DNA of 59,553 bases from Pseudomonadota bacterium (GCA_021827145.1 JAKAXK010000003.1:1-59553); one strand, 5' to 3'; numbered from the stretch's first letter, positions 4,247 to 51,059 are shown. Numbers and translations are program-made. The notes: generated by a model from the letters alone, not told the origin.

Positions 4247-5209
4247 ATGGCACCGTCGCAGGCCGCAAAACGCGTACTTGTCGTCTATTACTCGCAAACA
4301 GGCCAGTTGACGCGGGCCGTTCAGTCCTTTGTCGCCCCCCTGCGGGACTGCCCGGATATCGAGGTTGTGGATGCGGTTATCGCCCCGCGCGCGCCCTATA
4401 GGTTTCCGTGGAGATTTCTAGATTTTTTGGATGTTTTTCCGGAATCGGTCTATTTGGATCCACCGGAGATTGCGCCGGTCAGCTTCGATCCGGACGAGCC
4501 CTTCGATCTGATTATTCTGGCCTACCAGGTCTGGTTTCTGTCACCCTCCCTGCCGATTACGGGTTTTTTGCATTCGGACGCCGCCCGTGTGCTTACGGGG
4601 CGGCCGGTCATCACCCTCGTCGCCTGCCGGAATATGTGGCTCACCGCCGGGGCGAAGGTGCTTGCGCTGCTCGAACGACACGGCGCACGGCTCATCGATA
4701 ATGTGGTGCTGGTCGACCGAGGCGCACCCTGGACTACCTTTGTCACGACCCCGCGCTGGCTTCTGACCGGGCGCAAAGACGCGTTTTGGAAGATCTTTCC
4801 CGCCGCTGGCGTGAGTGCCGCCGACATCAAGGGGGCGGCGCGATTTGGACGCGCCTTGCGCGCTGCGCTCCCATCCCTGCAGGGGGCGCCTACGCATAGT
4901 CTGCTGCGCGGCCTAGGTGCTGTGCGTGTCGACCCTCGCTACATCGCGAGTGAACGCGTAGGTCACCGGAGCTTTCTGCTTTGGGGCCGACTCCTGCGGC
5001 GCATCGGCCCCCCGGGTTCGCGTCCACGGCGGGCGGTTTTGGTGTTTTACGCCATTTTTCTCGCGACCATGATTCTGACCGTGTTACCTGTGACCCTGAC
5101 GGCGGCATGGCTACTGCGACCCTTTCTTTCAGGGCGTCTGCGCGCAGCGGCGCAGCGTCTCGAAGCCCCTTCTGGCAGCAATTGCGATCGTTGTGGTGAA
5201 TTTTTGTGA
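4247..5209 (+). CDS. darA: DarA-like dialkylresorcinol condensing enzyme (flavodoxin-like fold)
   Basis: A 320-residue protein starting with a flavodoxin-type strand and phosphate loop (VVYYSQTGQLT, residues 13-22), the N-terminus seen in the DarA family. DarA works with DarB to join and cyclise two acyl chains into dialkylresorcinols such as those in flexirubins and 2-hexyl-5-propylresorcinol. A hydrophobic segment at about residues 263-294 suggests membrane attachment near the C-terminus, and the tail ends in CDRCGEFL. The stop overlaps the GTG start of the DarB-like gene. It is the first gene after the candidate promoter. Family assignment rests on the N-terminal motif plus the adjacent DarB-like gene; the catalytic mechanism cannot be read from sequence. 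Confidence 0.72.
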   Translation: MAPSQAAKRVLVVYYSQTGQLTRAVQSFVAPLRDCPDIEVVDAVIAPRAPYRFPWRFLDFLDVFPESVYLDPPEIAPVSFDPDEPFDLIILAYQVWFLSPSLPITGFLHSDAARVLTGRPVITLVACRNMWLTAGAKVLALLERHGARLIDNVVLVDRGAPWTTFVTTPRWLLTGRKDAFWKIFPAAGVSAADIKGAARFGRALRAALPSLQGAPTHSLLRGLGAVRVDPRYIASERVGHRSFLLWGRLLRRIGPPGSRPRRAVLVFYAIFLATMILTVLPVTLTAAWLLRPFLSGRLRAAAQRLEAPSGSNCDRCGEFL

Positions 5210-6363
5210 AAGAATCTGTGTTGCGACCCGTTTTTATCACCGGTCTGGGCGTCTTTTTTCCGAATGCGCCCGTCGAAAACGATACCATGGAAGCAGTGCT
5301 CGGCATGGCCGGTGGCCTGCCGTCCCGTGCCCGCAGGCTGGTTCTGGCGAGAAACGGCATCAAGCGCCGCTTCTACGCCATCGATCCGCAGACCCGTGCG
5401 CTCACCCATAGCAATGCCGATATGGCGGCTGAGGCAGTGCGGCTCGCGCTTACGCGCGCCGATGTGCCTCTCGGGCACGTGAACTGTCTGGCCTGTGGTA
5501 CGAGCAGCCCGGATCAGTTGAAGCCCGGCCATGCGCATATGGTGCAGGGGGCGCTCGCAGCGCCTCCCATGGAGGTGAGCTCCATCGCGGGCGTCTGCAC
5601 GGCGGGTGCCACCGCCCTCAAGTACGCGTATATGGCGGTCGCAGGCGGGGTCGCGAACGTGGCCGTGAGTACGGGTTCGGAGCTCGCCTCAAGTTTCATG
5701 CGCGCCGAGAATTTCGACGCCGAGCCCGACGCCGAGACGCTCGAGCGGCGACCGGTGGTGGCTTTCGAGCAGGATTTTCTGCGCTGGATGTTGTCGGACG
5801 GTGCGGGCGCCGCCGTCTTACGGGCCGTGCCCGCGACCGCCGGCCCATCCTTGCGCGTCGATTGGATCGATTGCCTATCCTATGCAGGCGAGCTCCCCGT
5901 GTGCATGTACAGTGGCGCGCACAAAGACCCGGACGGGCGCATGCGCGGGTGGCGGGAGGTGTCCCCCGCCGAAGCGAGTCGCGATCGTTACTTTACCGTC
6001 AAACAGGACACGCGCCTGCTGGATCAGCATATTATCGATGCGGCCGTCACCCGCCCCTTGGCGGCAATTGCGTCGCGGCGCGGGCTGGCGGCGCGCGATG
6101 TGGACTGGTTTCTGCCCCACTATTCCTCCGAGTACTTTCGGCCGCTCTTGAGTAAGGCCCTGGAGGCCGTCGGTTTTCCCATCCCCTACGAGAAATGGTT
6201 CAGCAATATGCCGCAGAAAGGCAATGTCGGTTCGGCCATGATGTATGTGATGCTCGAGGAGCTCTTGTACGCGGGCGTCCTCCAAAAGGGTCAGCGCCTC
6301 CTCTGTCTCGTGCCGGAGAGCGCGCGCTTCGCGACCTGCTATGCCCACCTCACGGTCGTCTGA
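5206..6363 (+). CDS. darB: DarB-like 3-oxoacyl-ACP synthase III family enzyme
   Basis: This 385-residue enzyme has the thiolase-fold layout of the KAS III group with a complete Cys-His-Asn triad: Cys131 in AGVCTAGATAL, His305 in WFLPHYSSEY and Asn340 in QKGNVGSAM. The N-terminal segment (FFPNAPVENDTMEAVLG, then ARNGIKRRFYAID) matches the DarB branch rather than ordinary FabH. DarB proteins condense acyl thioesters to make the dialkylresorcinol head. The GTG start overlaps the stop of darA (GTGA), so the two are translationally coupled. Confident as a KAS III homologue, fairly confident as DarB. Confidence 0.83.
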   Translation: MKESVLRPVFITGLGVFFPNAPVENDTMEAVLGMAGGLPSRARRLVLARNGIKRRFYAIDPQTRALTHSNADMAAEAVRLALTRADVPLGHVNCLACGTSSPDQLKPGHAHMVQGALAAPPMEVSSIAGVCTAGATALKYAYMAVAGGVANVAVSTGSELASSFMRAENFDAEPDAETLERRPVVAFEQDFLRWMLSDGAGAAVLRAVPATAGPSLRVDWIDCLSYAGELPVCMYSGAHKDPDGRMRGWREVSPAEASRDRYFTVKQDTRLLDQHIIDAAVTRPLAAIASRRGLAARDVDWFLPHYSSEYFRPLLSKALEAVGFPIPYEKWFSNMPQKGNVGSAMMYVMLEELLYAGVLQKGQRLLCLVPESARFATCYAHLTVV

Positions 6364-6378
6364 GCAAGGGCTTCGGGC

Positions 6379-6783
6379 ATGAAGGCCAACGAGGTCCCGC
6401 AAGACGATTCGATCCTCGAGGGACGGCGCCGTGCCTGTTACGCCCTGGACGCGCAGGGCCGTTATGTGGTGGTGGCGAGCCGCGGCTGGGAGGTGGAGCG
6501 CATAGTCAACGAGCACGCCCGAGAGGCCCTGCGGGTCGAATTGGAGGCAGTCCGCCTTCGGGTGCTGGCGGGGAAGGCGAGCGCTCTTGCCTATCACATG
6601 ACGGCCTGCCAAATGGATTGCCGGCTGCTTGCGGCCAACACAGGGCTGTCGCGCTTTCGCGTGCGGCGTCACCTGCGACCCAAGGTCTTCGCGCATCTCA
6701 CGCACGCTACGCTCGAGCGCTACGCCCATGCCTTTGGCCTATCGGTCGCGGAGTTGACGCGCCTGCCGGGGGTAGCGGTATGA
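6379..6783 (+). CDS. Small protein with a C-terminal HTH-like segment
   Basis: I do not recognise this 134-residue protein. Residues 1-60 are charged and end in an Arg/Glu-rich helix. Residues from about 68 to the end (LAYHMTACQMDCRLLAANTG, then LSRFRVRRHL and LERYAHAFGLSVAELTRL) have the spacing of an XRE-type helix-turn-helix: a variable first helix, an Ala/Gly turn, a basic recognition-like helix and the usual final helix. It starts 15 bases after darB and its stop overlaps the ATG of the BtrH-like gene, so it belongs to the operon. It may be a cluster-specific regulator or an accessory protein that merely borrows the fold. Confidence 0.65.
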   Translation: MKANEVPQDDSILEGRRRACYALDAQGRYVVVASRGWEVERIVNEHAREALRVELEAVRLRVLAGKASALAYHMTACQMDCRLLAANTGLSRFRVRRHLRPKVFAHLTHATLERYAHAFGLSVAELTRLPGVAV

Positions 6784-7784
6784 GTGTCCCGCGGGCATTC
6801 CCGCATCGGCATTCGGGGCACTGCGAAACGGGCACACTCGGGGCGCTGCTGCGTGACCGTGGGCTGGATCTGCCCGAGCCCTTGTGGTTCGGTATGGGCA
6901 GCGGCCTCTTTTTCCTGCATACGGGCTTATTGAAAGTCGGGGGGCTTCCGGTCACGGCCTATCGCGTAGCGCCGCTTGCCATCGTCCGTACCGCTACGCG
7001 TCGCCTTGGTATCCGCATGCGCTACGAGCGTTTCCGCGACGCCGGGGCCGCCACGCGACGGCTTGAGGAGTTGCTGTCCCAAGGGCTCGCCGTGGGCCTC
7101 CAGACCTGTGTTTACTGGTTGCCGTATTTCCCTTCGACCATGCGTTTCCAGTTCAACGGCCACAACCTCGTGGCCTTCGCGCGCGATGACGCCGGCTACT
7201 GGTTGAGCGACACAGTGTTCGAGGAGGTCGTTCATTGTGCGCCGGAGGCGCTCGCGCGTGCCCGTTTCGCCCGCGGCGCCTTTGCTCCACGCGGTCTTCT
7301 GTATTACCCGGAAGCAATACCCGACGATCCCGACATCGAAGGCGCCATACGCGCGGGCATCCGATCGACCTGTCGTCAGGTGCTCGATATCCCGCTCTTG
7401 CCCGTGGGTGTGCGGGGCATACGGGCGCTCGGGCGCGACATCGGCCGCTGGCCCGCGCGCCTTGGTGTCGACCGTGCCCGCGCGCAGGTCGCGCAGATCG
7501 TGCGCATGCAAGAGGAGATTGGGACCGGCGGGGCAGGGTTTCGCTTCCTGTTCGCCGCCTTTCTTGCCGAGGCGGGCCTGCGCCTCGATCTTCCCGGACT
7601 CCAGGATCTGTCTCGGGAGATGACCGCGATCGGGGATGAGTGGCGACAGTTTGCGCTGGTGGGCGCTCATATTTGCAAGGGCACCCGGACCGACGCGGGC
7701 GCCTATCAGGAACTCGCGGCGTTCTTGGTTGGACTGGCTGGACGCGAGGAAGGTCTGTTTCGGGCGTTGCGGGCGGCGATATGA
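6780..7784 (+). CDS. BtrH N-terminal domain protein (Cys-protease-fold acyltransferase-like)
   Basis: A 334-residue protein whose N-terminus HCETGTLGALLRDRG, followed by FGMGSGLFFL, fits the BtrH_N domain of butirosin BtrH, an acyltransferase that moves an acyl chain from an acyl carrier protein to an amine. The likely nucleophile is Cys15. The C-terminal half (EEIGTGGAGFRFLFAAFLAE and following) resembles the domain usually attached to BtrH_N. The start was fixed at 6780 by the ATGA overlap with the preceding gene; the frame stays open further upstream but that part is the shadow of darB. Within this cluster, with an ACP gene downstream, it may transfer or release an ACP-bound acyl chain. 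Confidence 0.75.
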   Translation: MSVPRAFPHRHSGHCETGTLGALLRDRGLDLPEPLWFGMGSGLFFLHTGLLKVGGLPVTAYRVAPLAIVRTATRRLGIRMRYERFRDAGAATRRLEELLSQGLAVGLQTCVYWLPYFPSTMRFQFNGHNLVAFARDDAGYWLSDTVFEEVVHCAPEALARARFARGAFAPRGLLYYPEAIPDDPDIEGAIRAGIRSTCRQVLDIPLLPVGVRGIRALGRDIGRWPARLGVDRARAQVAQIVRMQEEIGTGGAGFRFLFAAFLAEAGLRLDLPGLQDLSREMTAIGDEWRQFALVGAHICKGTRTDAGAYQELAAFLVGLAGREEGLFRALRAAI

Positions 7785-7904
7785 GTGAACCTTATCCTTC
7801 CCGCCGCTTAATCAGGGCCAACGGTGATGCCCGGACGCCCGCGCGGCGGGCCGTGCGGGCTTTTGCCTAGCCTTGCCTGGTGCAACACTGCTACCCTTTT
7901 GAAC

Positions 7905-8912
7905 ATGGCCGCATCGCTCCCCAGACCCGCTCCAGAGCCCCTTGCGCGGCCGCCCGTCGAGGCGGACCTCGCGGTCGATATCCAGGGCCTCTTCGGTCGC
8001 TATCGGCGCGCCGAGCGCGACAGCATAGAGGACGTGAGCCTGACCGTGAGAAAGGGCGCGCTCCTCGGCTTACTCGGGCCCAATGGGGCGGGTAAGACCA
8101 CCCTGCTCAGCATGCTCTGCGCGCTTATGCGTCCTCGCTCCGGCACCATTGCGGTGCATGGTTTGAGCTTCGCGGAGGCCCCCGATGCCTATAAAGACCT
8201 GATCGGGCTCGCCCCGCAGTCGCTGGCGCTTTATCCACGGCTCACCGCGCGCGAGAATCTCGAGACCTTCGGGCGACTGAGCGGGCTGTCCGGGGCTAGG
8301 CTACGCGCACGCGTGGCATTCGGCCTGGAGTTCGCGGGGCTCCAGGACCTAGCTCATCGGCGGGTGGAGACCTACTCCGGCGGCCAACAGCGACGACTGA
8401 ATCTCGCCACGACGCTTCTGCCCGATCCGCCGGTGCTCGTACTGGACGAACCCACGGTGGGTATTGATCCCCAATCGCGTCACGCTATTCATGAGAACCT
8501 GAGGGCCTTGAACCGTGCCGGCAAGACCATCATCTACACCTCGCATTATCTGGATGAGGTCGAGCAATTGTGCGACGAGATCGCGGTCCTTGATAACGGA
8601 CGCCTCATCGCCCAGGGCGCGCTCGGCGCACTGCTCGCGCGTTTCACCGGCAATCGCATCGAGTTGCGCTTCGACCCCCGGACCGTGGAGGCGGCGGCCG
8701 ATATCCTGCGGACCGTAGCCGGCGTCGAGGATGTGGCGGTCCAATCGCCGCTTCTCACGCTTGTCACGGACGATCCTTATCGGCGCCTGCCGGCGATCCT
8801 GAAGATGCTGGCGCATGTCCATATCCGGCCGCTCTCGGTGGCGGTCGGGGCGCGCGACCTGGAGCAGGCCTTCCTCGCGCTGACCGGCACGCAGTTGCGG
8901 GACGGGTCGTGA
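7905..8912 (+). CDS. ABC transporter ATP-binding protein
   Basis: The 335-residue ATPase has Walker A GPNGAGKTT, the signature YSGGQQRRL, Walker B VLVLDEPTVGID and the switch histidine in YTSHYLDE. It is the DrrA/CcmA type used by ABC-2 exporters. The ATG at 7905 was preferred to one at 7824 because the extra 27 residues look like an untranslated leader; neither has a strong ribosome site. It is coupled to the permease gene by a GTGA overlap. In this cluster it most likely powers export of the product or a lipid intermediate. Confidence 0.9.
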   Translation: MAASLPRPAPEPLARPPVEADLAVDIQGLFGRYRRAERDSIEDVSLTVRKGALLGLLGPNGAGKTTLLSMLCALMRPRSGTIAVHGLSFAEAPDAYKDLIGLAPQSLALYPRLTARENLETFGRLSGLSGARLRARVAFGLEFAGLQDLAHRRVETYSGGQQRRLNLATTLLPDPPVLVLDEPTVGIDPQSRHAIHENLRALNRAGKTIIYTSHYLDEVEQLCDEIAVLDNGRLIAQGALGALLARFTGNRIELRFDPRTVEAAADILRTVAGVEDVAVQSPLLTLVTDDPYRRLPAILKMLAHVHIRPLSVAVGARDLEQAFLALTGTQLRDGS

Positions 8913-10099
8913 GGCGCGCGTCGCAGTTGTGGGCGGCCTTGGTCAAGGAGACGCTCGGGCTTGTCCGCGACAAGGAGGCCCTGCTCATGCTGATCGTCAT
9001 GCCCGCGGTCTTCGTGCTCATCATGTCGCTCGCGCTGCAAGACACCTTCCGTCAGAATATTCCAAGGCCCATGCGGGTCATGTTCCTGGCGGGGCCGGGG
9101 GTGAGCACGGAACGGTTGCTTGCCGCCTTAAGACACGAGCACTCCCTGACGGTATCCGCGCGCATCACTCGGGACGATCGCGCCGAGCGCGCGCGCGTGC
9201 GCACCCTGGTGCGCGAGGGCCACGCCGCGCTGGCGGTGGTTTTGGCGGCCAGGCCCGGGAGCTCCCGGCCACGCACGGCGATTCTTTATGCGAACCCGGC
9301 GCTGCCAGCACAGATGCGTGCCCTCGGGATCTCGCTTGTGCGTCGCGCCTTCGCGCGTGTCGCCAGCAATAGGTTGGCGTCCATCGTGCGCCGTTTTGCG
9401 CCCCACGGCCCCGGTGTCCGGGCAGCGCCTCTGCGGCTTGTGGTGGCCAAGGGTGGCTTGGACGGCGCGCCCACGCCCACGTCCGCGCAGCAAAACGCCC
9501 CGGCCTGGGCCTTACTGGCGATGTTTTTCCTGACCGTGCCCTTGTCGGTGGCCGTGATCAAGGAGCGTCAGCAGGGCATCATCACTCGTCTGCGTGCGCT
9601 GCCCGTGCCTTCGTGGGTGCTGCTTGCCGGCAAGGTCCTGCCCTATTTTCTGATCAACAGCGTTCAGCTTCTCATGGTCCTGGGCGAGGCCATGTACGTG
9701 TTGCCGCTCCTTGGGGGTGACGCACTCACGATCGGTCATGCGCCGCTGGCCCTCGTGGTGGTGGCGGCGTCCGCCAATCTGGCGGCGATCGGTTATGGCC
9801 TGTTGCTTGCAACCTTGGTGCAAAGCCAGGAGCAGGCGACGAGTTTTGGCGCCGTGTCCGTCTTGATCATGGCCGCCATCGGCGGCATTTTGGTCCCGAA
9901 GATGGTGATGCCGGCGGCCATGCAAGAGTTTTCGGCGATCTCGCCCATGTCGTGGGGGCTGGATGGGTTCCAGGCGATCTTCGTGCGCGGCGACGGCCTG
10001 ACCGGTGTTCTCCCGGATACCTTGCGATTGCTAGGCTTTGGCGCGGCCTGCCTCCTCGTGGCGGCCGTACGATTTCACCGCGAGTTGCGGCCACAATAA
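8909..10099 (+). CDS. ABC-2 type transporter permease
   Basis: This 396-residue membrane protein has one N-terminal membrane segment (around ALLMLIVMPAVFVLIMSLAL), a soluble domain of about 170 residues, and then five or so further membrane segments including GAVSVLIMAAIGGILVP. That is the layout of ABC-2/DrrB-YhhJ permeases. The GTG start overlaps the stop of the ATPase gene. The pair forms a self-contained exporter inside the biosynthetic operon. The substrate is inferred from context only. Confidence 0.88.
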   Translation: MRRASQLWAALVKETLGLVRDKEALLMLIVMPAVFVLIMSLALQDTFRQNIPRPMRVMFLAGPGVSTERLLAALRHEHSLTVSARITRDDRAERARVRTLVREGHAALAVVLAARPGSSRPRTAILYANPALPAQMRALGISLVRRAFARVASNRLASIVRRFAPHGPGVRAAPLRLVVAKGGLDGAPTPTSAQQNAPAWALLAMFFLTVPLSVAVIKERQQGIITRLRALPVPSWVLLAGKVLPYFLINSVQLLMVLGEAMYVLPLLGGDALTIGHAPLALVVVAASANLAAIGYGLLLATLVQSQEQATSFGAVSVLIMAAIGGILVPKMVMPAAMQEFSAISPMSWGLDGFQAIFVRGDGLTGVLPDTLRLLGFGAACLLVAAVRFHRELRPQ

Positions 10100-10102
10100 T
10101 AG

Positions 10103-10405
10103 ATGGGGAAGGGTGGAGGGATGGGCGGAGCGACTGTCGGCGATCACGATGAGCTCGTGGTCGCGCTCAAGCAGCTGATCGTGACGGCCTGCAACCGGCC
10201 TGAGTCGGTTGAGGCCTTGGACGAGGACGCGCCGCTCCTGGGGCCCACGAGCCCCTGGGGCCTCGATTCCCTGGATGTGCTTCAGATCAGCTTGGCGCTG
10301 AGTCAGCATTACGCCATTCGTATCGAAGACAGCAAGGAAGCGCGCCGCGCGCTGGGCTCTGTGCGCACGCTGGCGCTCTATCTCCGGGCTGCCGGTGTCG
10401 CGTGA
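10103..10405 (+). CDS. Acyl carrier protein
   Basis: This small 100-residue protein carries the phosphopantetheine attachment motif GLDSLDVLQ with the serine at residue 56, in a helical context typical of ACPs. An ATG at 10121 (residue 7) is an equally possible start. It lies 3 bases after the permease gene, and its end overlaps the start of the ketosynthase. It should carry the growing acyl chain for the two ketosynthase-family proteins that follow and possibly for the BtrH-like protein. Confidence 0.88.
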   Translation: MGKGGGMGGATVGDHDELVVALKQLIVTACNRPESVEALDEDAPLLGPTSPWGLDSLDVLQISLALSQHYAIRIEDSKEARRALGSVRTLALYLRAAGVA

Positions 10406-11513
10406 TGTGAGGGTGGGTTTCGCGGCTTCGCACATGCGCACTCCCTTCGGGGCGGGGCAGGCGGAGCTCGTGCGCGCCTTGCGCGAAGGGAGGACTGCGC
10501 CGCGGCGTGGCCTGCCGGCGTTCCCAAGGCAGGACCGTGGGGACCTGACGGCGGCCATGGACAGCGTGGACTTCACGCCCAGCCCCAACGCTCTACGCGC
10601 GGCCCTCGCGGATGTCGCGCGTCCGGTGCACGCCGCGCTCTCCGCGCCGGACGCGTGGCTCGTCGTCGGGACCTCCGGCATCTTCTTTTTGGGCGAATAC
10701 ATGGGGCAGGGCTCCGAGTGGCTTGGATCATGCGGCGACATAGCCTGCGACCTCGCCCAGGACCTCGGGCTCGAACGTGCGCCGCTAACCTTGTCCACCG
10801 CCTGTTCGTCGAGCGCCAATGCCCTGTTGTTGGCCGCGCAGGCGATCGCGCGCGCGGAATGTCCCGCCGCGCTGGTAGTAGGCTTCGAGGCCTTGAGCCC
10901 GATCGCCTTGAACGGTTTCCGGTCGCTCTTGCTACTTGACCCACGCGGTTGTCGGCCCTTCGATCGCCATCGCGCCGGACTTCACTTGGGGGAAGGCTTG
11001 GCCGCCTTGTCCCTGCAGGCCTTGGCGCCTGATTTCCGGGGGGCGGGCGCCGTCATCCTCGGCGGGGCCCACGTCTGCGCCGCCATGGGGCCGGCTGGGC
11101 AGGCGCCGGATGCCGACGCTATGCACGCCGCCATGTCCGACGCCTTGCGCGCGGCCGCCTGCGAACCACGCGATATCGTGGCCATCAAGGCCCACGGTCT
11201 GGGCTCGGCCGATAGCGACGAGGCCGAGGCCATGGCTCTGCACAGACTTTATGGCGCCCCGCCGCCCGTGACCAGCCTCAAGGGCAGTTTCGGGCACACC
11301 TTGGGGGCGAGCGGCGCCCTTGAAACCGCGGCCTTTCTCGCCTGCCTCCAGGCGGGCTTCGTGCCGCCAGCCGCGGGCTTTGAGGAGGCCGATCCCGCGC
11401 TTGCCCTGGCGCCATTGCGAACGCCCCTGGCTGCCAGGCCGGGCCACTATCAGCTCAATTTCTTCGGCTTTGGAGCCAGCTACGTCTCCTTGGTCGTGGG
11501 CTTTGAACCATGA
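10395..11513 (+). CDS. 3-oxoacyl-ACP synthase (FabF-type ketosynthase)
   Basis: The 372-residue condensing enzyme keeps the full FabF-type triad: Cys137 in STACSSSANAL, His267 in IKAHGLGSADSDEAEA and His301 in KGSFGHTLGASGALETA. It is shorter than housekeeping FabF (about 410). The GTG start at 10395 lies inside the end of the ACP gene; GTG at 10407 is an alternative. Together with the Cys-less partner encoded next, this resembles the ketosynthase/chain-length-factor pairs of type II polyketide and aryl polyene systems. It probably builds one of the acyl chains used by DarA/DarB. Confidence 0.88.
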   Translation: MSRDVRVGFAASHMRTPFGAGQAELVRALREGRTAPRRGLPAFPRQDRGDLTAAMDSVDFTPSPNALRAALADVARPVHAALSAPDAWLVVGTSGIFFLGEYMGQGSEWLGSCGDIACDLAQDLGLERAPLTLSTACSSSANALLLAAQAIARAECPAALVVGFEALSPIALNGFRSLLLLDPRGCRPFDRHRAGLHLGEGLAALSLQALAPDFRGAGAVILGGAHVCAAMGPAGQAPDADAMHAAMSDALRAAACEPRDIVAIKAHGLGSADSDEAEAMALHRLYGAPPPVTSLKGSFGHTLGASGALETAAFLACLQAGFVPPAAGFEEADPALALAPLRTPLAARPGHYQLNFFGFGASYVSLVVGFEP

Positions 11514-12439
11514 GTCGCCCCATTTACTTTCATGCGCCCGCAACCTTCGCCCGCATGTGCGCATTTGACGACCACTCCGAGCGGGCGGCCTTTGATCAGG
11601 CGCTCGCCTTGCGCGTCCAGGATCTCTGCGGCCGATCCTTACGCCAGGCCTCACGCTTCATTCATCTGGCCGCCGTAGGCGCCCTCACTTCAGTCCGCGA
11701 GGCTGTGCCCCCTCCCTCCACCGGGGTGTATCTCGCCACGGGGCTCGGCGATCAAAGGACCCCGGCGCGGGTCTTCGCGCAGACACGCACTGACTTGGCC
11801 GCGGTCTCGCCATTCGATTTCGTCAATATGAACAGCAACACGGCGACCTACTACATAGCACGCCTTGCGGGCCTCGCCGGGCCCAACCTCACGATCAGCC
11901 AAGGGGTCTTGTCCTTCGAGTGGGCGCTGCATCAGGCCTGCATTGCCATCGAGGGGGGCCTCGACCACGCCTTGGTCGGAGGTGTAGACGAAGGTGCCCC
12001 CTCGCCCGCGGAGCTCGAACGCCGCTATGCCCTCCCTCCGGGTGAAAGCCCGGGGGAGGGGAGCGCGTGGTTCGTGTTGTCGACCGAGCCCACGCGCGCC
12101 GTGGGCCATCTCATCGACATGCATTGGCTCAGTGCCCCGCACACCGCCGATTGGCGGCGACTTTGCGACCATCTGCGGGATCTGGTCGAACAAGACCCCG
12201 TCCTCGTGTCATCGGCGGCGCGCGTGCCACGGTCCCTGGTCACTGAGATCATTGATCGACTGCCCCGCGCGATACCGCGCACCCCTCCGGCGGATTGCGG
12301 GGACTATCCCACGTGCTCTGCCTTGGCCGTCGTCCAGGGTCTGCGCGCCCCGTCGCCGCGCCCCGCCACCTTGCTCCACATATCAGCCGATGGCCGTGGA
12401 CGCTTCGTCACCATCCTCTGTCACATCGAGCGCGCGTAG
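11510..12439 (+). CDS. Ketosynthase-like protein without catalytic Cys (chain-length-factor-like)
   Basis: This 309-residue protein has the N-terminal half of a ketosynthase fold, but where active enzymes have the nucleophilic cysteine it reads TISQGVLSFE (residues 128-137), with no Cys. The HGT and GHT histidine motifs are also missing from the shortened C-terminal half. Its ATG overlaps the stop of the active ketosynthase gene (ATGA), the usual arrangement for a heterodimer partner. The likely role is a non-catalytic subunit that shapes chain length. It closes the co-directional run that starts with darA. Confidence 0.78.
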   Translation: MSRPIYFHAPATFARMCAFDDHSERAAFDQALALRVQDLCGRSLRQASRFIHLAAVGALTSVREAVPPPSTGVYLATGLGDQRTPARVFAQTRTDLAAVSPFDFVNMNSNTATYYIARLAGLAGPNLTISQGVLSFEWALHQACIAIEGGLDHALVGGVDEGAPSPAELERRYALPPGESPGEGSAWFVLSTEPTRAVGHLIDMHWLSAPHTADWRRLCDHLRDLVEQDPVLVSSAARVPRSLVTEIIDRLPRAIPRTPPADCGDYPTCSALAVVQGLRAPSPRPATLLHISADGRGRFVTILCHIERA

Positions 12440-12660
12440 TCATACGGGCGGCACCCTGAAGGCATCGCGACTCGTACCGAAACAGACACTCATATACGCG
12501 TAACGCCGATACCATTCGGTAGACCGAGATCAGAAATCCGAAGATCAAGGTCGCGAAACGATTCCCTACGTTCGTGTATCCACGGAATTACCGGAATCAT
12601 TGGCACAACCCCTATGACCTGCTACAGTCATTTGCTCAATATATAAAAAAGGGAGGATTT

Positions 12661-13071
12661 ATGAAGAAGTGGAAATTACTGGTATTCGTAGCCGTAGGCT
12701 CTTTGAGCGCCTGCGCAACACCGTCTGGTGGGGCGTCAGGCGGATCGGGGGGGCACCCGGCGGCCAAGGCGCATGCCAAGCACGCATTTTATCTGAATGG
12801 GAAGCCGCGTCCTGGCAGCAAGTTCGCCAAGCTCCGTTCCGGAATGAGCCGGCAAGAGGTCCAGGGCCTCATCGGGCCTCCGACGAGTACTACCGGTCAT
12901 ATCACAGGGAAGCAGTTCATACCTTTCTATTACGGTGGAGATACATATAGAAGCGATTGGTACTACAAAGGCGAGGGTGAATTAACCTTTTCACAACGTT
13001 ACTACCGTAGCTCCGCCGAGGGCCTTATCTACATTCGCGTGAACCCCAAGGAAAGCGGGTATCACAAGTAA
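12661..13071 (+). CDS. Small lipoprotein with SmpA/BamE-like domain
   Basis: The 136-residue protein starts with a lipoprotein signal peptide (MKKWKLLVFVAVGSLSAC, lipobox LSAC), then a Gly/Ser/Ala linker and a segment KLRSGMSRQEVQGLIGPPTS that matches the start of the SmpA/OmlA (BamE) fold. It probably sits in the outer membrane. GGGAGG lies a few bases before the ATG. The DNA upstream (12600-12655) is much more AT-rich than the cluster and may hold its own promoter. It could be a cell-envelope helper for the cluster or an unrelated neighbour. Confidence 0.8.
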   Translation: MKKWKLLVFVAVGSLSACATPSGGASGGSGGHPAAKAHAKHAFYLNGKPRPGSKFAKLRSGMSRQEVQGLIGPPTSTTGHITGKQFIPFYYGGDTYRSDWYYKGEGELTFSQRYYRSSAEGLIYIRVNPKESGYHK

Positions 13072-13086
13072 GCCATAATCAAGTCC

Positions 13087-13112
13087 CACGGGCGGCATAC
13101 CGCCGCTCCGTG
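13087..13112. terminator. Hairpin between convergent genes
   Basis: CACGG at 13087-13091 pairs with CCGTG at 13108-13112, with an inner GCGG/CCGC pairing. It lies between the convergent lipoprotein and halogenase-like genes and could stop transcripts from either side, although no T tract follows. Confidence 0.35.
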
Positions 13113-13138
13113 GCCCCTGCCGGGTGGCGGTGCGAGCG

Positions 13139-14452
13139 CTAGACGCGAATGCTGACGCGCCGTTTCTGCCAAGCCGCGATCGACCGCCATGGATTTCGCA
13201 CCTGATTCCAGTAATAGATGGCCTTGAATGCCGCGACCGAACGCCAGATAGGTGTGTCCCCGAATATGTCCCCTGCGAGCACCGATAACAGCGCCTCTTT
13301 GACCCGGAAGATATTGCGTGGCCCCATGAAGAGATCACGCATGGACGGGTGATTGATCCGGTAGATGAACCAGGACAGCTTTCGCAAGCCATCGCGCATC
13401 GCCTGTTCGTAACCCTTGAGCGCCGCCTGCGCCTCCGCGGGTTTCCGCAGGCCGGTATCCACCGCATCGGCGGCGGCGAAGGCGCTCTGCATGGCGAGCA
13501 AGACCCCCGACGAGAAGACGGGATCGATGAACGATAAGGCATCGCCCACAAGCACATAGTTCGGCCCGTAGGCGCGCTCGCAGAAGTAAGAGAAGTTCCC
13601 TGTCGCCTCCACAGGCGTCACCATCTCGGCCGAGGCGAGGCGGGCAGCGAGTTCCGGGGCTTGCGCGATAATGTCCCGAAAGAACGTTTCGACATCGGCG
13701 CGCCGCGTCTTCATGTAGTAGGGCCAGGTGACGGCCCCCACGCTCGTTGCGCCGTCAGGCAACGGAATGAACCAGAGCCAGCCGTGTTGGAACCAGAATA
13801 TGGAAATATCCCCCTCGGCCTCGCCCTCCTGCCGGATGGCCCCACGAAAGTGTGCGTACAGGGAGGCGCTGTTGTGACGCGGATTTCGATGCTTCATGTG
13901 CTCGCGGTTACCCATGAAGGTATCGCGTCCAGACGCGTCCATCACATAGCGCGCATGCCATGTTCGTCCCTTCGCCGACCCGTCGTCGGCGTGCACGAGC
14001 GAACCCGCATCGGCCGACGCGTTTTCGACGCTACGGACCCGACAACCCTCGATCACGGTGGCGCCCTGGCGCGCCGCGTTTTGCAAAAGGACCTCGTCGA
14101 ATTCGGAGCGCCGCACCTGATAGGCGTGGGGCATGGTCTTGTCCCAGGCGTCCTTGAAGGCGAATGTCTGGCTCGTGTTCTCGTGCCAGGGCGAGACGAA
14201 CTGGACCCCGCGTTTTATCATGCCGAGCGCACGTATCTCGTCGGCGATCCCGAGGCGCTCAAAAAGTGGGAGATTGGCCGGCAACAGCGACTCGCCGACA
14301 TGAAATCGCGGATGGTGGTCCTTTTCCGCCACCACAACTCGATGCCCTTGTTGGGCGAGAAGCGCAGCGGCTGTCGAACCTGCCGGCCCTCCGCCGATAA
14401 TGAGGACATCACACTCCTCCACGCCATCTTTGGACTCAGTCAGACCCGCCAT
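13139..14452 (-). CDS. Flavin-dependent halogenase-family oxidoreductase
   Basis: This 437-residue FAD enzyme shows the dinucleotide loop GGGPAGS near residue 21, then GESLLP (53-58), the halogenase motif WLWFIP (WxWxIP, residues 225-230) and the second FAD motif VLVGDALSFIDP (300-311). Lys80 falls where tryptophan and phenol halogenases have their catalytic lysine (Lys79 in PrnA). Halogenases of this group act on aromatic or phenolic substrates, so a resorcinol ring made by DarA/DarB is a plausible target. GGAGG precedes the ATG. It is transcribed against the main operon. An alternative is a geranylgeranyl-reductase-like FAD oxidoreductase without halogenase activity. Confidence 0.78.
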   Translation of the reverse strand: MAGLTESKDGVEECDVLIIGGGPAGSTAAALLAQQGHRVVVAEKDHHPRFHVGESLLPANLPLFERLGIADEIRALGMIKRGVQFVSPWHENTSQTFAFKDAWDKTMPHAYQVRRSEFDEVLLQNAARQGATVIEGCRVRSVENASADAGSLVHADDGSAKGRTWHARYVMDASGRDTFMGNREHMKHRNPRHNSASLYAHFRGAIRQEGEAEGDISIFWFQHGWLWFIPLPDGATSVGAVTWPYYMKTRRADVETFFRDIIAQAPELAARLASAEMVTPVEATGNFSYFCERAYGPNYVLVGDALSFIDPVFSSGVLLAMQSAFAAADAVDTGLRKPAEAQAALKGYEQAMRDGLRKLSWFIYRINHPSMRDLFMGPRNIFRVKEALLSVLAGDIFGDTPIWRSVAAFKAIYYWNQVRNPWRSIAAWQKRRVSIRV

Positions 14453-15083
14453 CCCATCCTCCCGTTCTTAGAAGGGCAGCTATCCCTTCGCGCTTATAGG
14501 GCCGGCCCCCTGGCGCATTGGCCGCCACGTCATACCCCCACCGCTGAGTGCCGTTGTGGGCTTCCTCGAGGCGCGGTCATCGGCCGTATACGCCTACGCG
14601 TTTTCGCGTGTGGCGACGGCCCGCTTAGAGGCCCGTGTCGGCCGCGATCCCCGCCGCTGACGCACCCCGTCACGTCGGCCCAGCCGACACATGTCATGAG
14701 CATGGCATCTCACCGTGCTTCTGACTTGATATCGCTCAAGGAGGGGGCGTGGGTGCCAACACGGGCCTTCTGGGCTGTCTGGGCCGTGGCCTCGCTGAAT
14801 ACCTGATGTGATCAAGGCTCACGATGGACGGGGGCCCGGCGGGACGGCGAATAGCGTTTCCTCTTCGTTTCGACCTTTGGCATACTGTCGAGGCTGCTTG
14901 GACGCACCACAAGGGCATGGGCTGCGTGACATGCATCCTCCGTGCCGGTGTCGACAAGGGGGTTTCAGTCCGGAGGCCCACTTAAAGCAATTTATGGCGG
15001 GGCCTGCACGGCGCCGCACGCAGGGAGATGGACCCCAGGTTGTTTCGGCCTGGGGCAAGCGAAGCGAAGGGAAGGGAAGGGGT
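14453..15083. other. Intergenic region with no recognised gene
   Basis: This stretch separates the divergent halogenase-like and methyltransferase genes. An open frame continues upstream of the methyltransferase start to 14808, but its extra 92 residues are Cys/Arg-rich and unlike protein. Promoters for both genes should lie here. Confidence 0.45.
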
Positions 15084-15830
15084 GTGCCGAAGGTGATGAT
15101 GGACGAGTTGATCGACGCGGCGGCGGCCCCTTATCGGAACGCCGGCCGGTTCTCCTGGCATTTTGCGCGCAGCAAGTTGGCGCGCGACCCCATTTTCGCC
15201 GAACTCCTGACACGCGGGCTTATACCCGACGACGCGCATATCCTTGATCTCGGCTGTGGCCTGGGCCTCCTTTTCTCGTGGCTCACGGCCGCGCAAGACC
15301 TTTGGAAACGCGCCGCGTGGCCCGCCGCGTGGCCCAAACCACCGCGCTTCGCCTCTTATCGCGGGATCGAGCGGGCTGGCCGCGACGCAGCGCGCGCCCG
15401 TGAGGCGCTGATGGTCGGTAGCGTCACATGCGGCGACATACGCACGAGCGATTTTGGGGTCGCGAATGTCGTCGCCATTTTCGATGTACTGCACTACATC
15501 GACTGTGCGTCCCAGGACGGGGTCCTGGAGCGTGTACGCGAGGCCCTGACGCCACGCGGGGGACTTCTGCTCTTACGCATAGGGGACGCCGCCGCCGGCT
15601 GGCGTTTTCATGTCACGCGCTTGGTCGATGTCGTCATGACATCCCTTCGCGGGGCGCGTCGGCAGCGATTGCACTGTCGTCCGCTCGCATCCTGGCTTGC
15701 GCGCCTCGATGCCCTCGGCTTCGATGTCACGGCGCTCCCCATGAGTCGCGGCACGCTGTTCGCCAATGTGCTGCTCGTCGCGCGCCTTCCCGCCGTGGCC
15801 GAGACCGATGTGGCATCATCGAGCGCCTGA
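15084..15830 (+). CDS. Class I SAM-dependent methyltransferase
   Basis: About 248 residues with a Rossmann methyltransferase core: motif I HILDLGCGLGLLFSWL near the N-terminus and a later strand VANVVAIFDVLHYIDC, followed by PRGGLLLLRIGD. This is the small-molecule class I family. GTG at 15084 is preferred because a repeated GAAGG ribosome site lies just upstream; ATG at 15096 is possible. It follows the halogenase-like gene divergently and probably decorates the same product, for example by O-methylation, but its position outside the main operon leaves room for doubt. Confidence 0.75.
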   Translation: MPKVMMDELIDAAAAPYRNAGRFSWHFARSKLARDPIFAELLTRGLIPDDAHILDLGCGLGLLFSWLTAAQDLWKRAAWPAAWPKPPRFASYRGIERAGRDAARAREALMVGSVTCGDIRTSDFGVANVVAIFDVLHYIDCASQDGVLERVREALTPRGGLLLLRIGDAAAGWRFHVTRLVDVVMTSLRGARRQRLHCRPLASWLARLDALGFDVTALPMSRGTLFANVLLVARLPAVAETDVASSSA

Positions 15831-19819: not shown

Positions 19820-20878
19820 TCAGGGTCTCGTGGCTTCGGTGTCGAATCTCTTGCCGTTGATGTTTTCAAATACGGCAGTGTAGCGCCCGCCGCCGATAGA
19901 CGCGGCTGTGGTCGGCTTCAGTGTAATCCACGCCTTGGCGCCCATCTTGGCCTTGAGACCGAAGAGACCAGGCTTGAACTTGTTGTAGTGGTAGATGTTC
20001 TTGATGTGTCTTTTGGCCGCTTCCTCGAGGGCTTTACCCTTCCAGCTCTCTACGACCCCGTGCGGTCCTTTGACGATCACTGCGACAACATGCGAAGGGA
20101 CAGCCGGTGTGCCGCCGTCCAAGTAAGCAAGCACCGTCACGCCACCGTCTTTGTGTAATATCGCTTGGCTCAGGCTTATGTGATGTTTGCCCGGGCTCAC
20201 GGGCCCGCCGTGGAATTTCGTGTAGATGGAACCCCGGTAGTAGTTGTAGGAGACCAGAGTAAAGACCGCGGCGATGATAGCGAGACCCTTGCCCCAACCC
20301 TCGGTCTCACGGGCTGTGAAGGGGGCACTGCCCAACCAGTGGAACCAAGCAGCATCCGCAAGATGCGGATTACGACGCACGAGCCAACTGTCTATGGCCC
20401 AGCTGCCGCTGCCCGCCACGAAGACGGTGCAGCCCATGGCGAAGGTGGATGCGGCCATAGTCCATTCATCTATGCAGGTCGCCCCCTGCCATCCGAAGAC
20501 CAGCATGAGGGATACACTTAAGGCGATACTGAGGCCAGCGCAGGCGCGCGTGAGGACACCCAGGATGAGCCCGAGCCCACTTACGAGTTCGGCTGCGCTC
20601 ACAAGCACGAGTAGCCAGTAGACGAGTGCGGGGTGTTGGAGGATGTGGCTTAGGACATGATTCAGGCCGAAGAGCGCCCCCGGCATGCCGCCTTGGAGCT
20701 TATTGGCCATCCAGCTGTGGGCGTGCGGGTCAAGTTTTTTGGGGGCGTAGATGAAGCGGCGTGTCCCTCCGCCCCAATATATCCAGCCGAGAATGAGGCG
20801 CACCGCAAGCACCGCCGCGCCCGTCATCCGGAATACTGTCGGCTGGTCGTAGGTCTGTTCCAGTGTGTATCGGCCCAT
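19820..20878 (-). CDS. doxDA: Thiosulfate:quinone oxidoreductase, fused DoxD-DoxA
   Basis: This 352-residue protein joins a DoxD membrane part (RLILGWIYWGGGTRRFIYAP, then KLDPHAHSWMANKLQGGMPG, and four to five membrane helices to about residue 205) to a DoxA-like soluble C-terminal domain (SIYTKFHGGPVSPGKHHISL onwards). The enzyme oxidises thiosulfate to tetrathionate and passes electrons to quinone. In Acidianus the two parts are separate proteins; the fused form is known from sulfur-oxidising acidophilic bacteria. The ATG at 20878 is preceded by AAGGA; the frame stays open upstream but without protein-like sequence. It is the clearest metabolic marker in the window. Confidence 0.88.
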   Translation of the reverse strand: MGRYTLEQTYDQPTVFRMTGAAVLAVRLILGWIYWGGGTRRFIYAPKKLDPHAHSWMANKLQGGMPGALFGLNHVLSHILQHPALVYWLLVLVSAAELVSGLGLILGVLTRACAGLSIALSVSLMLVFGWQGATCIDEWTMAASTFAMGCTVFVAGSGSWAIDSWLVRRNPHLADAAWFHWLGSAPFTARETEGWGKGLAIIAAVFTLVSYNYYRGSIYTKFHGGPVSPGKHHISLSQAILHKDGGVTVLAYLDGGTPAVPSHVVAVIVKGPHGVVESWKGKALEEAAKRHIKNIYHYNKFKPGLFGLKAKMGAKAWITLKPTTAASIGGGRYTAVFENINGKRFDTEATRP

Positions 20879-21090
20879 GGCTTCCTTGAGGCTCCTTGAT
20901 CTGTCCCTGTCCTTTCTTTGTGGTGTCCGCGCAAACGTTTCCCACAGTAAGCCGCGGAGCTTCTCGTCAGCAAGAGACCACGGGCGCACCCACGGAGCTG
21001 ACCGCGGAATGACAGCCGGAGTTCCCAAGCGCCACGTCTCCCCGGTGGCGCTGATCGTGTATTCGTTGCCGGGGGCGGCGTTATTCTTAC

Positions 21091-22287
21091 TTAGGCGCTT
21101 TGTGTCACTTCGTTGTGTCGGTCGCTTTGCGAATACCAGGCGTCGCGGGTCATGCGCAGCCCCTCGAGCGAGCGAGCAAGCTGGATATGGAAAACCACGA
21201 GGTCGCCTACCGCAAATGCGGCTTCGCAGGCCGCGAGATAGAACTCCCACATCCGCGCGAAGCGTTCGTCCAGGCGTCCAACGACCTCGTTCCTGTGGCT
21301 CTGGAAGCGTCTCTGCCACTCGCGGAGCGTGTACTGATAGTGGAATTTCAGGACTTCGAGGTCGGCGATCTTGAGGCCGGCCTTTTCGATCGGCGGAAGG
21401 ACTTCGGACAGGGCCGGGTTGTAGCCACCAGGAAAAATGTAGCGACGGATCCAGGGATTCGTTTGGCCGGGAGGGCCACTGCGGCCGATGTGGTGGACGA
21501 GGGCAAGGCCAGCGGGCGCGAGCCGCTCCCGAATCTTGGCGAAGAAGGTTTCGTAGTGGGGGATACCCACGTGCTCGAACATTCCCACGCTCACTACGCG
21601 ATCATAGAGTCCGCGATGCTCCCGGTAATCCTCCAGCCGGAATTGGACGCGGTCAGAGAGGCCGGCCTCGCGCGCGCGGGCGGCGGCCACGCGCAGCTGT
21701 TCCTTGGATAGCGTGATGCCCGTCACCTCGATGTCGGCCATGCGGGCGAGATGGAGCGCAAGCCCTCCCCAGCCGCAACCGACGTCCAGCACGCGCATTC
21801 CGGGTTTCATCTCGAGCTTACGTCGTATGAGCTCGCATTTGGCAATCTGCGCTTCCTCAAGGCTCATATCGGGCCGTGCGAAGTAGCCGCAGGAGTAGTG
21901 CATCTCGCGGTCGAGGAACAGCCGAAACAAGGCCTCGTCCAGGTCGTAATGGTGGGCCACATGGCGGCGGCTTGCGCCAAGTCCGTTGCTTTGTTCGAGA
22001 TAGCGTCGGAGGTTCGAAAGAAGGGACGAGGGAGGTTCGTCCGGGAGGTTGCGAAAGAAGACTTCAATCAGCGCGGCGAGCCCCTTGGGCGCGTCCCATC
22101 GCCCCTCCATGTAGGTCTCGCCCAGTTCGAGCCAGGGGTTACGGATGAGGCGACGGATGGCCGAGCGGTCATTTATGACCCACTCAGCATCCGGTGAGCC
22201 CTCGCCGTAGCGTCCGACGACTCCTGTTGGGTAGCGCACTGTCAGGCGGCCGGCCGTTATGGCATCGGCCAAAAGTCTTTCCAGCAT
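21091..22287 (-). CDS. cfa: Cyclopropane-fatty-acyl-phospholipid synthase
   Basis: A 398-residue SAM-dependent enzyme that adds a methylene bridge to unsaturated phospholipid acyl chains. It shows RRHVAHHYDLDEALFRLFLD, the bicarbonate/active-site cysteine Cys133 in HYSCGYF, motif I RVLDVGCGWGGLALHL (166-181), VGMFEHVG, the HHIG segment and the C-terminal YTLREWQRRF. All match E. coli Cfa. GGAGG precedes the ATG at 22287; an upstream start at 22353 would add an Arg-rich non-conserved tail. Cyclopropane lipids lower proton leakage, in line with an acidic habitat. Confidence 0.93.
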   Translation of the reverse strand: MLERLLADAITAGRLTVRYPTGVVGRYGEGSPDAEWVINDRSAIRRLIRNPWLELGETYMEGRWDAPKGLAALIEVFFRNLPDEPPSSLLSNLRRYLEQSNGLGASRRHVAHHYDLDEALFRLFLDREMHYSCGYFARPDMSLEEAQIAKCELIRRKLEMKPGMRVLDVGCGWGGLALHLARMADIEVTGITLSKEQLRVAAARAREAGLSDRVQFRLEDYREHRGLYDRVVSVGMFEHVGIPHYETFFAKIRERLAPAGLALVHHIGRSGPPGQTNPWIRRYIFPGGYNPALSEVLPPIEKAGLKIADLEVLKFHYQYTLREWQRRFQSHRNEVVGRLDERFARMWEFYLAACEAAFAVGDLVVFHIQLARSLEGLRMTRDAWYSQSDRHNEVTQSA

Positions 22288-23514: not shown

Positions 23515-24822
23515 TCACCAGTTCAGGCGTAGGGCGCGGGTGATTTCCGCTGTGCGTACGGGGTCGACGCCCGCCTCGCGAGCCATATCCGGCCACGTGG
23601 CGACGGCGTCGACGACCTCCTCCAGGATGCGGTCCGGTCGCGCGATACCAAGCGACGCACCCACGGTCTGGAGGTCCGCGCGCGTGAAGTGATCACGCTT
23701 CCCGTTGATCGTCATTTGGTGCTGGTAAGTCCAGCGGCCCCCGGGGTTGTGGGCATAAATGAGGTCAAATGCCGGCGCCAGGCGCCATTTTCCGTCGGGC
23801 CCCATCAAGAAGCCGATGTTCTTGGTGTGGTCATCCTGGTTGCGGGCGACCACGTTGAAGATCAGGCGTCGGTACAGTTGGATCGCGTCGGCCTTAGGCA
23901 GGCGCAGGCGACGCATGACATCGAAGACCTGTTCGTAGCCATAGGCGCCGGCGGCGTTGTAATCGTAATGGGCGATGCCGCATAGGGACTGCATATGGAG
24001 CTTTTCGCGGCCCACACGATCGAATCGCTTCGTCAAAAAGTGGGCGCGGCCGTTTTCATGCAGCAGCCGGCATTCGCTCATCGTGATCCCTGCCGCGTGC
24101 GCCATGCGTGAGTAAGCGTACTCGATGCGCCCGTATCCCTGCGTGCCCCCGAGTTCGAGATCCATTACGCCATCGAATTTGAGCAGCCAATAGTCGTAGC
24201 CCGAGGGAACTGGACCCTGGCCCGAGAGCACGTGGCCTTGGTCGTCGAGCGCGATCACGGCCTTGGCGCGGGCCCCGCCGGCCGAGGTGCCAACCCGCAG
24301 GATGTCGCGCAGGGCCGCTTCGTCCGGACCGTTCCCGACGCCAAGACGGGTATCGAGACGGCCACGTTCCGTCGTCGTCATGCGAGCGAGCTCCACGAGT
24401 TCCGCGATCTCGACGGGAACGGCAGCGCGTCCGAGGTGCTGATTCATGGCCGGCTCGAACTCGAGGGCGCCCATACCGCGTTCACCCGTGTAGCACAGCC
24501 GTTCGACGGGATTGAAGTCGCTCGCCGCGCGTCCTTGGCGCGCAAGCCAAGCATCGATCAATGCGTTCCCAAACTTGTCGGGGAGGGCGTCGGCCAAAAG
24601 TCCCGGCAGACCCATGAAGGTGTCGCGCGGTAAGTGGGGGAAGCTAAAGATCTGACCCGACGCTTGGGCCACGGGCATCGTCAGCGGCGCGACGTCACGC
24701 CCCGATCTCAAGAACGCGGGCTCAAACTCAAACGCCGCCAGGGCCCGATCGGCAAGCCAGGCGACGGCGCCTACGGGTTCGCCCCAGAGCCGCACAAGGG
24801 CGGCCGTGACTGCCCCTACCAT
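23515..24822 (-). CDS. hipA: HipA-family serine/threonine kinase toxin
   Basis: The 435-residue kinase has the HipA N-terminal barrel (ALVRLWGEPVGAVAW), a Gly-rich nucleotide loop VGTSAGGARAKAVIA (177-191), the catalytic loop NQDDHTKN (328-335) and the metal-binding AFDL motif (351-354). HipA kinases phosphorylate translation factors such as GltX and induce dormancy unless held by HipB. Its ATG overlaps the stop of hipB by 7 bases. All catalytic residues are intact. Confidence 0.92.
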   Translation of the reverse strand: MVGAVTAALVRLWGEPVGAVAWLADRALAAFEFEPAFLRSGRDVAPLTMPVAQASGQIFSFPHLPRDTFMGLPGLLADALPDKFGNALIDAWLARQGRAASDFNPVERLCYTGERGMGALEFEPAMNQHLGRAAVPVEIAELVELARMTTTERGRLDTRLGVGNGPDEAALRDILRVGTSAGGARAKAVIALDDQGHVLSGQGPVPSGYDYWLLKFDGVMDLELGGTQGYGRIEYAYSRMAHAAGITMSECRLLHENGRAHFLTKRFDRVGREKLHMQSLCGIAHYDYNAAGAYGYEQVFDVMRRLRLPKADAIQLYRRLIFNVVARNQDDHTKNIGFLMGPDGKWRLAPAFDLIYAHNPGGRWTYQHQMTINGKRDHFTRADLQTVGASLGIARPDRILEEVVDAVATWPDMAREAGVDPVRTAEITRALRLNW

Positions 24823-50885: not shown

Positions 50886-51059
50886 GATTTTCTGCCCCTC
50901 TTGCTCGGTAATCTCGCCCAGCAACGCCACGATCCCCGTTTTCATCTATTCGAGTTCCGCATCGATCTCTTCAAGATTGCGTGGCGCTTTGTACTCGGGG
51001 CAAGAGCGGTTGAGGTGAATCTCGTAGCCGACGCCCCATCTCGAAGCCCTTTTCGTCAC
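50886..51059 (-). pseudogene. Remnant of an HsdM C-terminus
   Basis: Just upstream of the GmrSD-family gene the frame reads GVGYEIHLNRSCPEYKAPRN, then LEEIDAELE, a TAG at 50946-50948, and MKTGIVALLGEIT. This matches the tail of type I restriction DNA methyltransferases (GYxIxxNRYF...PRPLEEIDAELxxLExxIxxLLGE). Everything before it is missing and a stop interrupts it. It suggests the neighbouring gene came from a type I restriction locus. Confidence 0.55.

Follow-up and report, generated by a model that had tools for sequence, protein, structure and literature searches.

The dar cluster of Azoarcus sp. BH72 runs in the order darA, B, D, E, F, G/H, I, C, J, K (PMC3949708 Table 1), and its genes have been labelled as a dialkylresorcinol (DAR)-aromatase (darA), a DAR-cyclase (darB), a conserved hypothetical protein (darD), a BtrH-like protein (darE), an ABC ATPase (darF), an antitoxin-/PilT-like pair (darG/darH), an ABC permease (darI), an acyl carrier protein (ACP; darC), a ketosynthase (darJ) and a hypothetical protein (darK) (PMC3949708). 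Heterologous expression of the Azoarcus Dar proteins gave a resorcinol, and mass spectrometry combined with feeding identified the pigment as a polyene-DAR hybrid (PMC3949708). This yellow pigment, arcuflavin, is an ester of the resorcinol with a methylated, non-brominated aryl heptaene; homologous DarA and DarB make dialkylresorcinol in E. coli. The flexirubin clusters of Chitinophaga and Flavobacterium likewise pair darA/darB with an aryl-polyene pathway and yield a polyene-DAR ester (PMC3992019), but their polyene starter comes from tyrosine (4-coumarate), as opposed to the 3-hydroxybenzoate proposed below, and a ligase-like protein, FlxW, has been put forward for the ester bond. The Xanthomonas xanthomonadin cluster has an XanB2-type chorismatase and polyene genes in common with the genome described here, yet lacks the resorcinol part.

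We analysed a 59,553-nucleotide stretch of DNA from a Pseudomonadota bacterium (GCA_021827145.1 JAKAXK010000003.1:1-59553; hereafter the window, with positions counted from its first letter). The source genome amounts to 2.81 Mb in 221 contigs, is 93% complete and has an estimated contamination of 1.8%. We conclude with high confidence that positions 4247-12439 encode the part of an arcuflavin-type (aryl polyene-dialkylresorcinol) pigment pathway that makes the dialkylresorcinol, and that the host is an Acidiferrobacter-like gammaproteobacterium; the most likely product is a xanthomonadin-like aryl polyene in ester linkage with a dialkylresorcinol, located in the envelope. The cluster type is already described and occurs here in a further, Acidiferrobacter-like lineage.

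Gene content and order of the dar operon

The genes of the operon and its neighbours are as follows.

4247-5209, plus strand: darA, flavodoxin-like DAR-aromatase/condensing protein, 320 aa (synteny and alignment)
5206-6363, plus strand: darB, StlD/DarB-type ketosynthase III, 385 aa (NF005293, 532 bits)
6379-6783, plus strand: darD, conserved small protein, 134 aa, with a predicted C-terminal helix-turn-helix domain (homologues in dar loci)
6780-7784, plus strand: darE (NCBIfam name DarH), BtrH-type acyltransferase, 334 aa (NF053550, 391.8 bits)
7824-8912, start probably 7905, plus strand: darF, ABC transporter ATP-binding protein (PF00005, 112 bits; conserved position)
8909-10099, plus strand: darI, ABC-2 permease (PF12698 and PF01061; conserved position)
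10103-10405, plus strand: darC, acyl carrier protein (PP-binding, E=8e-4; DSLD Ser56)
10395-11513, plus strand: darJ, beta-ketoacyl-ACP synthase, Cys137 (PF00109 and PF02801)
11510-12439, plus strand: darK, chain-length-factor-like ketosynthase partner without the active-site Cys (PF00109 partial, 26 bits)
12574-13071: lipoprotein-like ORF between the dar operon and the halogenase-like gene
13139-14452, minus strand: second ArcA-like flavoenzyme (halogenase family), neighbour of the operon (identity to flavoenzymes beside the chorismatase gene; motifs)
15096-15830, start approximately 15096, plus strand: ArcM-like methyltransferase, neighbour of the operon (identity to methyltransferases near arc genes)

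The nine dar genes lie on one strand in an operon-like arrangement and overlap, or nearly so, throughout, except before the ABC ATPase gene, where the gap is about 40-120 bases (the start of this gene is uncertain). The BtrH gene starts at 6780, as against 6195 for its open reading frame, and overlaps darD by ATGA. Because the lipoprotein-like ORF and the minus-strand halogenase-like gene separate the methyltransferase from the operon, we regard these two enzymes as neighbours rather than members. An earlier note on this DNA had placed them beside the dar genes, as is indeed the case, and the genes that it named are all open and correctly typed, with domain searches backing every label except DarA; it overlooked darD between darB and the BtrH gene. 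Its dialkylresorcinol-type assignment is supported, as is its suggestion of an acidophile-like source, with an Acidiferrobacter sp. MAG among the nearest relatives.

A scan of bacterial genomes with the window DarB returned 67 good relatives (L007-L073). The usual order, A-B-D-E-F-I-C-J, recurs in Variovorax, Dechloromonas, Zoogloea, Methylibium and Simiduia (loci including L011, L019, L024-L034 and L043), and DarB and BtrH of the Variovorax, Dechloromonas, Zoogloea and Simiduia clusters are 49-54% and 45-47% identical to those of the window, respectively. In other Proteobacteria the gene set is unchanged but F-I-C-J-K runs in the opposite direction, and Bacteroidales commonly show A-B-D-E. 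Since the nine genes keep one order in distantly related genomes, the cluster is not a chance assembly. In L008 and L010, two close relatives whose contigs are long enough, the operon is kept whole together with its halogenase and methyltransferase neighbours.

Compared by published annotation, the window and Azoarcus sp. BH72 have the identical nine genes in the identical order, A-B-D-E-F-I-C-J-K. Azoarcus carries the toxin-antitoxin-like darG/darH pair between F and I, which the window lacks, and its arcA (halogenase-type) and arcM (methyltransferase) lie in arc loci, whereas the ArcA-like and ArcM-like genes of the window adjoin the dar operon. The earlier note had taken the combination of a BtrH gene with a dedicated exporter for an undescribed system, and had itself said that finding this gene set in a cluster described before would refute it. 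Azoarcus sp. BH72 has just such a cluster, listed in 2014 (PMC3949708 Table 1), so the claim falls; an undescribed gene combination is ruled out by that table together with the synteny across many genomes. One candidate undescribed system is thus removed, the BtrH gene and exporter being standard parts of dialkylresorcinol-polyene clusters, and arcuflavin-type pigment genes are now extended to an Acidiferrobacter-like lineage.

The aryl-polyene genes and the halogenase-like neighbour

Genes for the partner pathway lie on other contigs of the same genome. One (C169) encodes a polysaccharide deacetylase, a chorismatase of the FkbO/Hyg5/XanB2 type, the outer-membrane protein MipA and an acyltransferase of the lipid-A type, as well as the start of an exporter; another (C28) encodes an exporter and an aryl-polyene ketosynthase paired with a ketosynthase-like protein; and a third (C158) encodes the other ArcA-like flavoenzyme of the genome, together with a glycosyltransferase, an SDR reductase and an AMP ligase. 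By domain, these genes match Azoarcus arc N, B, C, an acyltransferase, P, K/J, A, E, H and T. The chorismatase scores 117 bits against PF21168 and is also present in the four nearest relatives, and the aryl-polyene ketosynthase passes NF006618 with 419.5 bits (cut-off 407); KS and Ketoacyl-synt_2 genes stand side by side in a close relative. Across the 221 contigs, a search covering arc functions other than the dehydratase, LolA and the arc ACP found many of the ArcA-ArcX counterparts. As these genes sit on separate, mostly short contigs of a fragmented genome with slight contamination, their membership in it rests on binning. Some DarB genomes with the same operon gave no FkbO/Hyg5-type chorismatase match, so the dar operon alone is no proof of the polyene type. 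In the pathway that we propose, the XanB2-type chorismatase would supply 3-hydroxybenzoate, from which the arc genes would build the aryl polyene.

The two neighbours of the operon resemble, by sequence, ArcA and ArcM of this partner pathway. The flavoenzyme (Trp_halogenase, 119 bits) shares 59-60% identity with the enzyme encoded directly next to the chorismatase in Dechloromonas and in Zoogloea, and 65% with its own-genome paralogue on C158 (6091-7353). In a tree, the two own copies group as a duplication within the ArcA group (support 95/96; other forks are weak), and this lineage carries two ArcA copies. The methyltransferase gives a weak Methyltransf_23 match (29 bits) and is 44-48% identical to those on the Zoogloea ArcA/ArcB contig and, in Variovorax paradoxus, at about 4 kb from ArcB; it probably O-methylates the aryl polyene.

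That one of the two ArcA copies halogenates the pigment, on the aryl ring or on the resorcinol, would be a refinement of the arcuflavin-type reading rather than an exclusive alternative, and one that we consider possible but doubtful. The window flavoenzyme has the motifs of flavin-dependent halogenases, namely GxGxxG (GGGPAG), WxWxIP (WLWFIP), FxxPxxSxG (FIDPVFSSG) and the family/catalytic Lys, the roles of which have been described (PMC10377541). The Lys, WxWxIP and FxxPxxSxG occur in both ArcA-type enzymes, and chlorinated flexirubins and brominated xanthomonadins are known from the literature. These motifs are, however, no proof of halogenation, and the protein is best described as a predicted halogenase-family enzyme; because the arcA-bearing Azoarcus makes a non-brominated pigment, the window flavoenzyme may or may not halogenate. 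In this protein and its orthologues an Arg directly follows the conserved Lys (MxKRGVQF), in place of the Trp (or Phe/Tyr) of most others (MxKWGAEF), which may indicate a changed role. The orthologous gene of one close relative (G001:C126:5261-6571, L103, in the genome of L007) contains one in-frame TAG, reflecting either a pseudogene or an assembly error.

Far less probable is the proposal of the earlier note, a free, halogenated and/or methylated resorcinol lipid secreted by the dedicated ABC exporter. Free dialkylresorcinols are known elsewhere in the literature, and a motif-bearing halogenase-family enzyme and a methyltransferase do adjoin the operon, also in L008 and L010; but in other bacteria, enzymes related to both are encoded next to aryl-polyene genes, so that their decorating a free resorcinol is judged unlikely. 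The genome also has the polyene pathway, the BtrH gene and exporter are usual components of DAR-hybrid clusters, and the arcuflavin of arcA-bearing Azoarcus is reported to carry no bromine.

Proposed resorcinol formation and chain supply

DarB passes the NCBIfam StlD/DarB subfamily model NF005293 (cut-off 450) but falls short of the narrower NF053539 (type 'exception'; 442.6 bits against a cut-off of 550); by sequence, its subfamily membership stands and the narrow name does not. Its Cys131, His305 and Asn340 are invariant in an alignment of 67 sequences. Although the closest solved structure is StlD (5gk0, E=2.5e-121) and the narrow DarB model is not passed, a DarB product of the cyclohexanedione or stilbene type, as with StlD, is highly improbable in place of a dialkylresorcinol, since a gene for a DarA homologue immediately precedes darB and the DAR-hybrid gene set is complete.

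DarA had no match among Pfam or NCBIfam models and no significant match in the PDB, and its label therefore rests on synteny and on alignment with the homologues of relatives. A DarA homologue lies directly 5' of darB in most of them, at 47-57% identity (Variovorax, Dechloromonas, Thiohalomonas and others); many residues are invariant among 54 aligned sequences, and a flavodoxin-like P-loop, VVYYSQTGQL, can be read directly in the sequence. By analogy with homologues for which these steps have been shown, DarB would condense two thioesters head to head, one beta-ketoacyl and the other unsaturated acyl, and DarA would aromatise the resulting cyclohexanedione to the resorcinol.

The fatty thioester would be built or primed by DarJ and DarK with the ACP DarC. 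The PP-binding match of DarC is just below the gathering score, and Ser56 of its DSLD motif is invariant in 33 sequences. DarJ has the motif STACSSS, with Cys137 in 98% and Lys296 and His301 in all of 46 sequences. DarK is assigned as lacking the active-site Cys because LTISQGVLSF replaces the ketosynthase LTLSTACSSS. A DarK homologue without the ACS motif adjoins darJ in other Proteobacteria and in Bacteroidetes, and in several dar clusters (the Variovorax/Dechloromonas/Zoogloea/Simiduia group) this partner has diverged or was not recognised. A further contig of the genome (C60, 3,087 bases; L090) holds a second darI-darC-darJ-darK piece, about 90% identical, which is more probably due to a sister strain binned with this genome than to a duplication.

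DarD, which had no Pfam match, has homologues adjoining darB or the BtrH gene in more than 50 loci. Its AlphaFold2 model (pLDDT 86) gave weak Foldseek matches to XRE/HTH proteins (E 0.006-0.08), suggesting an HTH-like C-terminal domain and a possible role as regulator of the dar operon.

DarE and its possible role in the ester bond

DarE matches PF14399 (125 bits) and DUF4872 (178 bits) and passes the NCBIfam equivalog NF053550 (cut-off 300). That model is named DarH and corresponds to DarE of PMC3949708, where darH is a PilT-like gene. A BtrH gene is present in 61 of the 67 DarB loci, and 61 sequences all have Cys15, His128 and Asp144. A sequence search of the PDB gave no match for DarE, and its matches there come by predicted fold: the model (folded with 31 sequences, pLDDT 93) best matches AziU3, CtaG and CcbD (Foldseek E 3e-10 to 1e-6), BtrH-like acyltransferases whose structures have been solved.

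The predicted fold and the Cys-His-Asp triad that DarE has in common with these enzymes make it a candidate for the esterifying enzyme. Both would fit carrier-protein-dependent acyl transfer, for which a polyene-resorcinol ester is the obvious candidate product; DarE would then probably move the polyene from its carrier protein to a resorcinol hydroxyl by means of the triad. Identity to the three enzymes is only 11-17%, and CtaG and CcbD act on amines, whereas the acceptor proposed for DarE is a phenol. We offer as a tentative suggestion that DarE links aryl polyene and resorcinol, using a CtaG/CcbD-like triad with a phenol as acceptor, and that the ArcA copy next to the dar operon, with Arg in place of Trp beside the conserved Lys, may have turned to the resorcinol ring. 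If true, this role of DarE would answer the question of how the ester bond of flexirubin- and arcuflavin-type hybrids is made, a step so far proposed for FlxW in flexirubin, and DarE is a directly testable candidate for it. We envision that DarF/DarI and the arc-type exporter would deliver the pigment to the envelope, and that it would probably give protection against oxidation there.

Elsewhere in the window, a DoxD/DoxA thiosulfate:quinone oxidoreductase-like gene (19820-21319) fits a sulfur-oxidising acidophile, and a HipA-type kinase gene (23515-24822) and a GmrSD-type restriction endonuclease gene (49170-50945) both lie on the minus strand.
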